Shown here one piece after another: positions 14,110 through 18,275 of a stretch of DNA of 38,243 bases (positions within the stretch are counted from its first letter, which is position 1; each line of letters opens with the position of its first letter). The translations under genes and the position numbers were made by a program. The stretch covers positions 1 to 38,243 of IMG/VR virus record IMGVR_UViG_3300011126_000140. One strand, written 5' to 3'. This DNA comes from a virus. Below the pieces are notes generated by a model. It was not told where the DNA came from. It saw nothing but the letters and a program-made list of their open reading frames with translations, and did not search any database.

Positions 14110-14490
14110 TTAAACTTTACTAGACCACAATTCATGGCTTTTGTAATCTTCTACACCTAGATCCTGGTAAATTGGCTCCAGGTGATCCCGTAATAATTGT
14201 TTCTTAGAAGTATTAATAATAACACTAGAATTACATTTACTACAGGTTATTTTTATATTGTATGGATGGTGAACAACTTCAGCACCCAATATTTTTACAT
14301 TACCCTTAATAATTATATGAGCCATTTGTGGCAACCTCTGAAGATTAAAAGGCTTATGGCAAACCTCACAGCACCCACCGGCATAATTTATCATTTGCCT
14401 TTTTTGTCTCTCTATATCTTCTTTTTCTTCATAAGAGAGTTTTTTATTTGTATAAGTTAAATCCTCCAGCTTCAAAACGTTCCCCTCCAT
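14110..14490 (-). CDS. HNH-endonuclease-like protein
   Basis: The protein is 126 residues. It has a zinc-binding frame CCEVC (40-44) and CSKC (83-86) around a beta-beta-alpha core with MAHII (H58) and HHPYN (H74/H75, then N78), the expected HNH pattern. It may nick DNA in recombination or packaging, as HNH proteins do in many phages. The first ATG (14490) overlaps the upstream gene by 47 bases. A TTG at 14475 has GGAGGGG about 7 bases upstream and may be the true start, giving 121 residues. It is the last gene before the terminator. Confidence 0.75.
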   Translation of the reverse strand: MEGNVLKLEDLTYTNKKLSYEEKEDIERQKRQMINYAGGCCEVCHKPFNLQRLPQMAHIIIKGNVKILGAEVVHHPYNIKITCSKCNSSVIINTSKKQLLRDHLEPIYQDLGVEDYKSHELWSSKV

Positions 14491-15013
14491 GCTTTCTTAA
14501 ATAATTAAAATATCCAACACTTAATAATGCAGAGTGATCACCTTCCAATTTACGCATTGACTCTTCTACTTCTTTTGGAATCTCTTCAGCCATTTTAATC
14601 TCTGATAACATGATATGTAATGATTTACATTGCTGCTTCATTGTCATATCTTCCCAGTGCCTTGGTTCTTTAACTATAAACCGATGATACTCTTCAGGAA
14701 GATTATTAATAAAAAAATCTACATCTTTTGATGTTTCACCACCAAAACTATAATATGCAGCTTTAGCATCACAACCCCAATATTTATAATACTTTTTTAA
14801 ACCATCAATAGTTCTTATCTGTCTACCATTCCACATAGAACTATAACAGCCTGAATTATACCAATGAGTTAAAAGAGCATGAAAAGCACCCCTTAAACGG
14901 CTTCTATCTCTTTCTACTTCTACAGTAACAGAAATAACCTTTTTCTCATTATCCATAATATAGTCTAATAGTTCCGGTGGAATATTTCCTTCTTTAATTT
15001 GATATTTTGGCAT
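14444..15013 (-). CDS. Hypothetical protein, 189 aa, recombination operon
   Basis: I do not recognise it with confidence. The N-terminal region carries RDRSRLRGAFHALLTHWYNSG, a basic-aromatic stretch that is reminiscent of NinB-like phage recombination proteins, though too little is shared to assign it. The remainder is mixed with several Trp and Tyr residues and no Cys cluster. It lies between the Rad52-like candidate and the HNH gene, so a role in single-strand handling or branched DNA is plausible but inferred. The ATG has GGAGC upstream. Confidence 0.55.
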   Translation of the reverse strand: MPKYQIKEGNIPPELLDYIMDNEKKVISVTVEVERDRSRLRGAFHALLTHWYNSGCYSSMWNGRQIRTIDGLKKYYKYWGCDAKAAYYSFGGETSKDVDFFINNLPEEYHRFIVKEPRHWEDMTMKQQCKSLHIMLSEIKMAEEIPKEVEESMRKLEGDHSALLSVGYFNYLRKHGGERFEAGGFNLYK

Positions 15014-15015
15014 TT

Positions 15016-15720
15016 TTAAAGCTCCGGTATAGTTCCATCAATAAAACTTTTCTTAACAAAAGTGGAAGTTTCAGCAATTAAAGATTTTTTCTTATCTTCA
15101 TCATAATCCTTTTCATCAAGAGCCTCTTTAAACTTTATATCTAATTCATCCTCAGACTTTTTATTAATATTTTCTTGTTTTTCAAGATCTATACCTGGAC
15201 CACTAAAGGGATCTTTAAAATCACCTATTTTATTATTTTCATAACTCTGTAACCCCTGAGCATCATCTGCAATACTCATATAAATATTAGATGAAAAACC
15301 TAATCTTGATAAACCTTTATTAAGTGCATCAGCAGTAAGACTTTTTTTAAATGAATTATTTAATTTACCATTAAAAGAGGTTATCTCTCTGGATGATTCT
15401 ATATATATAATACCTTCAGCACCATCATGAGGATAATACAACTCTGCGGTATAATCACAATTCAATAATAAGGTTGTATTTATATATTTCTTACCATCCT
15501 TTTCAGAAACAGAAACACTCTTACCAATTTGATACCTATCATATACAGGATTACGAACACCCCATTTAATACCCATAGGACCCCATTCATCTGTCGCCCT
15601 CATAATTTGATAAGTTGGATTTATTCCAGTTAATTCCTTACCATCTACATTAATAGGATAAGTATATTTTCCATCTGTTCCACTTACAGACTCCCAAAAC
15701 CCTAGATTATTCACTGACAT
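15016..15720 (-). CDS. Single-strand annealing protein candidate (Rad52-like)
   Basis: The protein is 234 residues. The segment NNSFKKSLTADALNKGLSRL then GFSSNIYM resembles the hallmark of phage Rad52-superfamily annealing proteins, where a residue pair before an alpha helix precedes a Gly-rich turn and 'xYxxxDD'. Here ADDAQG follows. The C-terminal 60 residues are charged and helical. An annealing protein would pair with the PD-(D/E)XK exonuclease encoded 3 kb downstream to give a lambda Red-like system. The assignment rests on a short motif and context, so it is tentative. It is the second gene of the leftward early operon. Confidence 0.5.
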   Translation of the reverse strand: MSVNNLGFWESVSGTDGKYTYPINVDGKELTGINPTYQIMRATDEWGPMGIKWGVRNPVYDRYQIGKSVSVSEKDGKKYINTTLLLNCDYTAELYYPHDGAEGIIYIESSREITSFNGKLNNSFKKSLTADALNKGLSRLGFSSNIYMSIADDAQGLQSYENNKIGDFKDPFSGPGIDLEKQENINKKSEDELDIKFKEALDEKDYDEDKKKSLIAETSTFVKKSFIDGTIPEL

Positions 15721-16184: not shown

Positions 16185-16526
16185 GTGGATATTCCAAGAT
16201 TACAATTACAGGTAAATACAACAACTAAAAAACTAGGTTACACAATAACCAGAGAAACAACCATTGCAAAATTAAAAGATGAAATCAATGAGCTAGATTT
16301 TTCTAAACCAATAGATTCATGTGCATTACCTAAAATGCTTGTAGACGTTAAAAACGATGGTTTATTTTTTAAAGTCTATAAAGACCATGTAAAAGGTACT
16401 GAACTGGAAGAAATACCAGATATGTTCTTTGTCCTACTATCCTACTGTGAAGAGATAGGACTAGACTTTGAAACCCTGGCAATTGCTAAAAAGCGTTTCA
16501 ATGATTTACTTGCTGCTGAGAAATAG
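16185..16526 (+). CDS. MazG-like (all-alpha NTP pyrophosphatase) candidate
   Basis: The start is GTG 16185, with AAAGGTGG 6 bases upstream; an earlier ATG at 16164 lies inside the RHH gene. The 113-residue protein has LKDEINEL (ExxE) followed about 45 residues later by ELEEIPDMFFVLLSYCEEIG (ExxxD). This matches the EXXE...EXXD metal-binding helices of MazG-type pyrophosphatases, and the end (LDFETLAIAKKRFNDL) is also typical. It would hydrolyse nucleoside triphosphates or an alarmone. The match is short, so the assignment is moderate. Its last 29 bases overlap the end of the o-spanin gene on the other strand. Confidence 0.55.
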   Translation: MDIPRLQLQVNTTTKKLGYTITRETTIAKLKDEINELDFSKPIDSCALPKMLVDVKNDGLFFKVYKDHVKGTELEEIPDMFFVLLSYCEEIGLDFETLAIAKKRFNDLLAAEK

Positions 16527-16803
16527 CACTTTCAATTTTAGAGATTATATTTAATATAGTCTCTTTTTTTTCTTCATACTCTTCCTGAGTAATTTCACCA
16601 ACCATATATTTAACATTAAAAGACCATAAAAGCATCCTATAATAAACAAGAACTAATATAACCTTATCCTCTACAGGATCACCAGAAAGCACCGGTTTTA
16701 ATGGAACTGCTGGTAATCTTACAACATCAATAGGCTCAATAGTCCTACAACTCAGAATCATTAAAAATATAAGTAACATTACTATTAGTTTCTTTTTTTT
16801 CAT
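16498..16803 (-). CDS. o-spanin (Rz1-like outer-membrane lipoprotein)
   Basis: The protein is 101 residues. MKKKKLIVMLLIFLMILS then C19 is a lipoprotein signal with a lipobox. The next stretch contains several prolines (RLPAVPLKPVLSGDP), as expected of o-spanins, and then a helix. It pairs with the i-spanin across the periplasm and fuses the inner and outer membranes at the end of lysis. Its first 59 bases overlap the end of the i-spanin gene in another frame, a classical Rz/Rz1 arrangement. The 3' end overlaps the convergent MazG-like gene by 29 bases. Confidence 0.75.
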   Translation of the reverse strand: MKKKKLIVMLLIFLMILSCRTIEPIDVVRLPAVPLKPVLSGDPVEDKVILVLVYYRMLLWSFNVKYMVGEITQEEYEEKKETILNIISKIESAISQQQVNH

Positions 16804-17032
16804 CTTCTCCCTGGTCCTTTATATTATCTTTTATAATATCTTGTTTATGCTGCAGCTCATCATCCTGATTCGCATAATCTGCATTATTATTTATTTGATC
16901 TATATATCCTTTACATCTATCAAGTAATTTATCATTATCTTTCTTCAGATCCTTATTACTATCAATTAAAAAGATATTAACCAAAACACTAATTACCAAT
17001 AGTGCAATAATTATTATTACAAACTGAATCAT
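16745..17032 (-). CDS. i-spanin (Rz-like inner-membrane protein)
   Basis: The protein is 95 residues. An N-terminal membrane span (MIQFVIIIIALLVISVLVNIF) is followed by a charged periplasmic coil (DSNKDLKKDNDKLLDRCKGY, with one Cys) and a polar end. This matches the i-spanin plan, and the downstream lipoprotein gene overlaps it by 59 bases out of frame. Together they make the outer-membrane lysis step, which implies a diderm host. GGGGGT precedes the ATG. Confidence 0.75.
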   Translation of the reverse strand: MIQFVIIIIALLVISVLVNIFLIDSNKDLKKDNDKLLDRCKGYIDQINNNADYANQDDELQHKQDIIKDNIKDQGEDEKKETNSNVTYIFNDSEL

Positions 17033-17102: not shown

Positions 17103-17582
17103 TTAAGGTGCATCCCTTATTAAGTAATCATAAAAAACCTTTGTGCGCTCCATATCTATAGCATATAATATGTCATAACACGAATCCAACATTAACCCAT
17201 CTGTTATACTTACCTTTTTTAATGGACTGGCCTCTAAATCTTCTATAGTAAAAACTTTTGTATATGCAGCAATAGCATTATTTGTAATTTGCTTAACATT
17301 ATACTCTTTCAGTTCTCCTATATCTTCACTTACACCCTGAATATCTTCTTTCATCTCTCTTATTTCTGCTTTAACTACTTCAGTAATTACCGGTCTTAAA
17401 GCTTCAGCAAGAGCGACTTCTCCAGCTTCTAAAACACTTACCTCATCAGAAGCAAATCCCTTAGCAACCTCAACAGCCTGATCAACTCCAAGAATAAGAG
17501 ATAAAACCACTATTAGCGCTACTTTTCCATACTTGTTTAAAAAATTATCCATCTTTTCCCCTAGATTATTAATATATTTCAT
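17103..17582 (-). CDS. Single-span membrane protein of the lysis cassette
   Basis: There is one N-terminal hydrophobic span (KVALIVVLSLILGVDQ, about 20-35) and then a long charged helix (VVKAEIREMKEDIQGVSEDI) and a soluble end. The ATG at 17582 overlaps the holin stop (ATGA). A second ATG at 17552 has GGGGAAAAG directly upstream, giving 149 residues. It lies between the holin candidate and the spanins. It could be an antiholin, a second holin-like protein or a lysis timing factor; no family is recognised. Confidence 0.55.
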   Translation of the reverse strand: MKYINNLGEKMDNFLNKYGKVALIVVLSLILGVDQAVEVAKGFASDEVSVLEAGEVALAEALRPVITEVVKAEIREMKEDIQGVSEDIGELKEYNVKQITNNAIAAYTKVFTIEDLEASPLKKVSITDGLMLDSCYDILYAIDMERTKVFYDYLIRDAP

Positions 17583-17836
17583 CTTACACCATCCCCTCTA
17601 TTCTGCATAGCGTTAATACCATTTCTAACATTATGCTTTATAGCATTACCAAAAAGTAAATATAACCCAGTATTTGTCCAGTGTTCTATTATTTGAATAT
17701 CTATACCACTATCAGAAATAAATATTTTTACTACAGATAGCACAAAAGCCACACCCAGACATATATAACCAGAAATCTTCATTTTCCCAGTTGTTTTAAT
17801 TTTATCTTCTAAAATAGTAGTATTGCTTTCTTGCAT
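17579..17836 (-). CDS. Holin candidate with two membrane spans
   Basis: The protein is 85 residues from the ATG at 17836, preceded by AAAAGGGG; a frame from 17875 would be longer but lies inside the peptidase gene. A charged N-terminal stretch precedes span 1 (YICLGVAFVLSVVKIFI) and span 2 (TNTGLYLLFGNAI), and the tail is basic. Small size, two spans and a position directly after the endopeptidase and before spanins fit a holin, which releases or activates the lysin. No sequence family is identified. It overlaps the peptidase gene by 35 bases. Confidence 0.6.
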   Translation of the reverse strand: MQESNTTILEDKIKTTGKMKISGYICLGVAFVLSVVKIFISDSGIDIQIIEHWTNTGLYLLFGNAIKHNVRNGINAMQNRGDGVR

Positions 17837-18275
17837 CAATGCCCCTTTTCCAGCCTTTAACTGGCTTAGTACCAAAATCTAAACCCTCATGTAAATAATA
17901 GTCCTTACTATTAGTATAATACCTTTCCTGAAAAGTTCCACTTACCAGGGTATTATATGGATAAAAATTAATTCTTAATAACCACGGTATTGGATTACTA
18001 GTAAATTTAGCCTTTAAGGCCTCATACCCTTTTTCAAAATATGATAAATGACCATGCTTAGGACCGTTACCAGTATCACCCATAATAGCAATTAACTGCC
18101 CCTGTTTTACAGTGTCACCCGTTTTAACCATATTTTCCTTATTATGTCCCTGTAAAGATGCTGAACCATCAGGATAACCAATATATATACAATTACCGTA
18201 ATCATTAGAGTAAAAAGCTGTTATTACAATTCCATCATCAGGTGCATATACATCATATAAACTGCTTCTTTTCAT
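17802..18275 (-). CDS. M23-like peptidase (endolysin), apparently circularly permuted
   Basis: The protein is 157 residues and should cut peptide cross-links of the host wall. The zinc residues of M23/LytM enzymes are all visible but in the reverse order. The N-terminal part resembles the usual second half: VYAPDDGIVI, a Gly/Tyr-rich sheet, QGHNKENMVKTGDTVKQGQL (H44) and GPKHGHLSYF (H74, H76). The C-terminal part resembles the usual first half: LVSGTFQERYYTN then HEGLDFGTKPVKG with H129xxxD133. Joining the C-terminus to the N-terminus would recreate the normal order. No signal peptide is seen, so a holin is needed, and one is encoded next. A short basic tail (about 141-157) overlaps the holin start. 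Confidence 0.75.
   Translation of the reverse strand: MKRSSLYDVYAPDDGIVITAFYSNDYGNCIYIGYPDGSASLQGHNKENMVKTGDTVKQGQLIAIMGDTGNGPKHGHLSYFEKGYEALKAKFTSNPIPWLLRINFYPYNTLVSGTFQERYYTNSKDYYLHEGLDFGTKPVKGWKRGIDARKQYYYFRR

Follow-up and report, generated by a model that had tools for sequence, protein, structure and literature searches.

An apparent M23 endopeptidase gene in a phage genome raises the question of whether the two halves of this fold have exchanged places within one chain, or whether the reversed order of its zinc motifs is only apparent. The window, as the whole analysed stretch of 38,243 nucleotides (IMG/VR record IMGVR_UViG_3300011126_000140) is called here, carries this gene on the minus strand at 18275..17802; it encodes 157 amino acids from an ATG start, and its TAA stop lies at 17802-17804. 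The earlier note had placed the gene correctly at 17802-18275, missing its strand, and the residue numbers given there for H44, HGH (74-76) and HEGLD (129-133) were exact. By the Pfam, EnvC and model alignments, residues 8-99 (17979..18254, minus) are the part of M23 that normally follows HxxxD, through the C-terminal NPxPWL. Within this part, His44 (18144..18146, minus) is the counterpart of the catalytic His located about 30 residues before HxH, according to the position rule of PMC9662197, and the HxH motif H74-G75-H76 lies at 18048..18056 (minus). Directly after the domain end NPxPWL comes the segment YPYNTLVSGTFQE...HEGLDFG, which is normally first in M23. This moved N-terminal segment (YP..NTLVSGTF...HEGLDFG, residues 100-140; 17856..17978, minus) was assigned by profile matches to canonical strand 1, loop 1 and strand 2, and it contains the HxxxD motif H129-D133 (HEGLD; 17877..17891, minus). 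The linker from NPxPWL to YP is about 5-7 residues long, and a C-terminal extension, W..GI.A...YY (residues 141-157; 17805..17855, minus), ends the protein. Its N-terminus is without a hydrophobic stretch. A single M23 match and no second M23 piece were found in the window record, and the seam of the genome is far away in the portal gene, as had been claimed, with a 604-residue portal frame crossing the end-to-start join.

Against the Pfam M23 profile (PF01551, cut-off 28.7 bits), residues 8-78 of the window protein matched profile positions 15-86 of 96 with 57.5 bits, without the HxxxD start. When the halves were rejoined in the usual order, the score increased to 68.6 bits and positions 2-86 were matched unbroken. 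EnvC was the best sequence match among solved structures, and its alignment with the window protein extends through the domain end (NPQPWL versus NPIPWL). In tblastn searches of annotated phages, query coverage of at least 80% was obtained in 79 of 274 records for the rejoined protein, as against 0 of 138 for the native order. Both zinc motifs of PF01551, H(x)nD and HxH, are present (H129/D133 and H74/H76), and so is the catalytic His, H44 being 30 residues before H74. However, the order of the motifs, HxxxD and then HxH in PF01551, is reversed in the window protein, and because of this reversal the protein is filed, on its sequence, as a permuted M23 variant rather than an ordinary member. 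In the family search only M23 and weak barrel-sandwich families matched the window protein, and an NlpC/P60 match was absent.

The same permuted protein was present in four more IMG/VR phage contigs, a wider family that the earlier note had missed. L005 (3300005264_000201; 44% identical to the window protein) was found through a search with the neighbouring baseplate J protein, L106 (3300033145_000312; 45%) and L113 (3300043219_000190; 48%) by the DNA pattern of the tail, and L123 (3300027985_000858; 32%) by a four-protein profile. Their PF01551 scores, 72.3, 60.3, 60.5 and 59.2 bits, respectively, are all above the cut-off. An identity-based scan with the window protein, in which the peptide patterns were too strict, found no viral relative; a CAC-codon version of the tail DNA pattern found no permuted relative, and one scan of bacterial genomes gave only two Bacillus proteins, both canonical. 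In the alignment of the five members, H44, H74, H76, H129, G131, D133 and F134 are invariant, and the linker is similarly short. The tail motif YP.NT.VS..F.E.Y...HEG.DF is conserved in four members, and the fifth reads YP..N..IS..YGR..HMGVDF. The C-terminal extension is likewise conserved in four of the five; the L123 protein, from which it is missing, stops two residues past the HMGVD aspartate (HMGVDFV). Each of the five records holds one M23 domain, and every gene frame is intact. Among 114 distinct M23 cores from the fetched loci, a sample selected for resemblance to the window protein and not a census, the motif order was canonical in 107 and permuted in five, the other two being fragments. 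Because four other phages carry the same order, the permuted order is, as far as the sequences speak, a real and inherited rearrangement and not a sequencing error. The reversed motif order noted at the outset is confirmed, and the circular permutation proposed with it is borne out by the sequence, by the profile matches and by its conservation across five phages.

The structure of the window protein was predicted with AlphaFold from an input alignment of 35 rows, of which two were permuted proteins and the others canonical fragments, 29 of the core and four of the N-terminal part. This alignment was selected from randomly drawn row sets for having the canonical N-parts placed on the tail by MAFFT; the first large structure alignments, in which MAFFT set the canonical N-terminal fragments onto the core, were discarded. 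Because the rows were chosen to put the N-parts on the tail, the model is a test of whether a one-chain domain is plausible in the permuted order, and not independent proof of the tail's homology or place. The mean pLDDT was 79.8 and the pTM 0.76 for one chain, and at this level the two incomplete, non-assembling domains that would have spoken against the permutation were not predicted. By residue, the pLDDT exceeded 90 at 11-70, was about 80 at 101-110, below 60 at 111-130, about 75 at 131-140 and below 50 at 145-157, so that the moved segment (101-140) had middling values of 56-80. Strands were predicted at 126-128 and 132-135, flanking HEGLD. Single-sequence AlphaFold, run with no alignment, gave a pLDDT of 35.6 and nothing usable. 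In Foldseek and VIA-align comparisons, which run along the chain and confirm the core only, model residues 6-101 matched lysostaphin 289-384 (Z 13.0, rmsd 1.5, 93 residues, 30% identity), and residues 5-102 matched LytM 218-316 (Z 12.2, rmsd 1.8, 95 residues), a delimitation that leaves residues 103-140 as the moved segment. Since the zinc ligands of lysostaphin are His279, Asp283 and His362 (PMC4286107), the aligned core begins just past HxxxD and ends at the domain end. In EnpA, the zinc ligands are on strands 2 and 10, loop 1 links strands 1 and 2, and the conserved core sheet consists of strands 1, 2, 10 and 6 (PMC8269130). By analogy, the permutation would have broken the chain between strands 2 and 3 and fused strand 1 to the end that follows strand 11.

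In the window, the end of the M23 gene is overlapped by a gene for a holin-like small membrane protein (17579..17836, minus). Its counterpart in L002, the closest relative by baseplate J, comes after the lysin slot and shares 38% identity with it. Next in the cassette is a membrane-anchored protein (17103..17582, minus) with an L002 homologue at the same place. It is followed by an inner-membrane-spanin-like protein, recognised from its sequence and its L002 homologue, with one hydrophobic stretch and a charged remainder (16745..17032, minus), and by an overlapping gene for an outer-membrane-spanin-like lipoprotein (16498..16803, minus) with the lipobox MILSC and a 70% identical L002 homologue. 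The holin-like and spanin-like genes of the window had no Pfam or PHROG match, and we infer that the small membrane protein is a holin. In L106, the gene after M23 overlaps its stop codon and encodes a GTA-type 3TM holin, with PF11351 above the cut-off; the gene after M23 in L005 matches holin PHROG 3427, and a weak Rz-like spanin match (E 0.0036) follows the M23 gene in L113. Holin or spanin neighbours, as looked for beside an endolysin gene, are present by family in L106 and L005, and only by sequence in the window. These surroundings suggest that the permuted M23 protein would be a holin-released endolysin in a phage of a Gram-negative host, and the label of endolysin in the earlier note stands as far as gene neighbourhood carries it. 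L002 has kept the membrane-protein and spanin-like set with a different protein in the M23 slot. This protein (L002:13883-14371), with 'GHFKSFDHDPW' and a 'S.RYYKRL' end, had no Pfam or PHROG match, and it is possibly a C39-like cysteine peptidase lysin. L106 (3851-4561) and L113 (4998-5642), otherwise dissimilar phages, also each encode, near their lysis genes, a multi-pass membrane protein whose C-terminus carries a LuxR-type helix-turn-helix, with a weak GerE match in L106.

The contig is metagenomic, and an assembly artefact or a hidden frameshift might conceal a canonical gene. However, five contigs, each from a sample of its own, show the same order with intact frames and a single M23 match each, and the close neighbours are intact. 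Five separate metagenome assemblies exclude in practice the misassembly or hidden frameshift that had been named as a danger to the permuted reading, and the probability of this explanation is negligible. It is also very improbable that a partial M23 core is followed by an unrelated truncated C-terminal region in which HxxxD occurs by chance. Searched by itself, the tail has no match in Pfam or PHROG, as would be expected of such a region, but its motif is conserved in four members, with a variant form in the fifth, and its resemblance to the canonical N-part exceeds that of nearly all shuffled tails. Using canonical profiles built from 59 canonical M23 domains out of the fetched loci, the window tail scored 9.1 bits against the N-part profile, which was equalled by 2 of 3000 shuffles; for the tails of L005, L106 and L113, 0, 1 and 0 of 3000 shuffles, respectively, were as good. 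When tail and core were rejoined, the full-domain score of the window protein increased from 82.9 to 96.4 bits and none of 1000 shuffled tails was as good, and likewise none of 1000 shuffled-tail versions reached the real score of the rejoined L005 protein. The rejoined order scored higher than the native one in all four long permuted members (window, L005, L106 and L113). Furthermore, a profile of four tails aligned with canonical positions 3-43 of 132 (P = 2.6e-5, profile-profile), exactly the missing segment.

Other alternatives concern the working form of the permuted protein. A swapped dimer, in which each core would be completed by the tail of a partner chain and the active site would lie between molecules, is unlikely: the short linker may strain docking within one molecule and the confidence of the tail in the model is modest, but the canonical M23 domain folds as a monomer, and a linker of such small length, kept similar in the five members, suits the joining of neighbouring termini. 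We consider it quite unlikely that the protein has lost its catalytic activity or acts as a regulator, like the degenerate LytM factors that activate amidases, and that lysis is the work of another enzyme. Several LytM proteins are indeed non-enzymatic, including EnvC, the closest solved structure by sequence. However, degenerate LytM domains are without the catalytic motifs (PMC9662197), whereas the zinc ligands and both catalytic His residues are kept in the five members, down to 32% identity, and the lysis region of the window showed no further gene recognisable as a lysin candidate. The window protein is very probably a zinc endopeptidase of the M23 (LytM) type in circularly permuted form, with the role of phage endolysin.

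For the permuted endopeptidase, the following working is proposed. The break in the chain would fall in the loop that leads from canonical strand 2, the carrier of HxxxD, to strand 3, and the old C-terminus NPxPWL would have been joined by the short linker to the old N-terminus YPxNTLVSG, placing strand 1, loop 1 and strand 2 last. In the folded protein, zinc would be held by H76, H129 and D133, and H44 and H74 would act as general catalytic residues activating water, following the residue roles in M23, with its catalytic His about 30 residues ahead of HxH (PMC9662197). A holin would let the enzyme out of the cytoplasm, and the enzyme would then cut the peptide cross-links of peptidoglycan.

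The history of the permutation was addressed with a tree from which the moved segment was left out, so that only the shared core was compared. All five permuted proteins fell on one side of a branch with an SH-aLRT of 76, a value that is not decisive, and four of them grouped together with 97. The permuted label needed one change on this tree versus a mean of 4.9 for shuffled labels, and 0 of 500 shuffles reached one change. Because the five permuted proteins group on the core tree, a single origin of the permutation is favoured and is probably correct, though not proven. In the most diverged permuted member, L123 (7983-8399), the DG of the first strands is seemingly followed by a gap of about eight residues. 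The L123 core is closer to canonical tape-measure M23 domains (47-51% over short stretches); L123 may be an independent second permutation. Within the fetched stretches, the window and L005 share most structural genes. Beyond M23, the overlap of the window with L106 is limited to three genes, small or of the DNA-metabolism type, and no genes common to the window and L113 or L123 were found in these stretches. This little gene sharing with L106, L113 and L123 points to horizontal spread of the permuted M23 gene. In addition, HNH-like and recombination-type genes at 14110-15720 of the window are common to L002, L005 and L106, and the tail genes of L106 differ, a picture of mosaic exchange. Another fetched locus, L010, has two adjacent, overlapping canonical M23 genes (914-1753 and 1746-2309). 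Fusion of such a tandem, followed by trimming, could give rise to a permuted gene.

To our knowledge, all described M23 members have the order HxxxD and then HxH, and reviews define the family by its motifs and not by their order. The window protein is like M23B (PF01551; LytM, lysostaphin, EnvC and phage M23 lysins) in having H(x)3D and HxH, the extra catalytic His and the beta-sheet core. It differs from M23B in the place of HxxxD behind HxH, in the C-terminal position of strand 1, loop 1 and strand 2, and in the extension W..GI.A..YY of four of the five permuted members. The lysins of Staphylococcus phage 2638A (6yj1) and Thermus phages (8s3m), which were among the structural matches, also use the M23 fold in phage lysis, but in the canonical motif order. 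Permuted NlpC/P60 families, YaeF/G6R and LRAT-like, are described in the passages of PMC6403190 that cite Anantharaman and Aravind (2003), and they resemble the present case as a natural circular permutation in a peptidoglycan hydrolase fold with the order of catalytic residues swapped; unlike the window protein, they are cysteine peptidases of a different fold and not zinc-dependent. When the window, L005, L106, L113 and L123 proteins were searched by tblastn against 50,697 annotated phage records, no convincing full-length match was obtained. Two long-coverage annotated matches, the Adaia lysin and MT837655, and strong plasmid matches (Vibrio campbellii, Sphingomonas and Rhodococcus) were rejected, with motifs in the canonical order. 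Against annotated phages, the window tail alone had no credible match and the L005 tail alone only chance-level endonuclease matches. An M23 review covering 90,000 sequences (PMC9662197) does not use the word 'permuted'. It is likely that these proteins are an undescribed clade of active permuted M23/LytM endolysins, the first known permutation of the fold, with a single origin, passed between otherwise unrelated phages and with new termini beside the active-site strand.

M23 endopeptidases are among the commonest peptidoglycan hydrolases, and in the open-access literature that was searched no permuted form of M23, LytM or an endolysin was described. Linear profiles call such proteins truncated M23 and would judge them inactive, as HxxxD seems to be missing, which is a warning for annotation. 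The free ends at a new place would be useful for fusing lysins to other domains, and the permutant is a ready test of folding and of the loops that matter for substrate choice. If the predicted site assembles, this natural permutant means that the zinc site of the M23 fold survives a chain cut beside one of its ligand strands.
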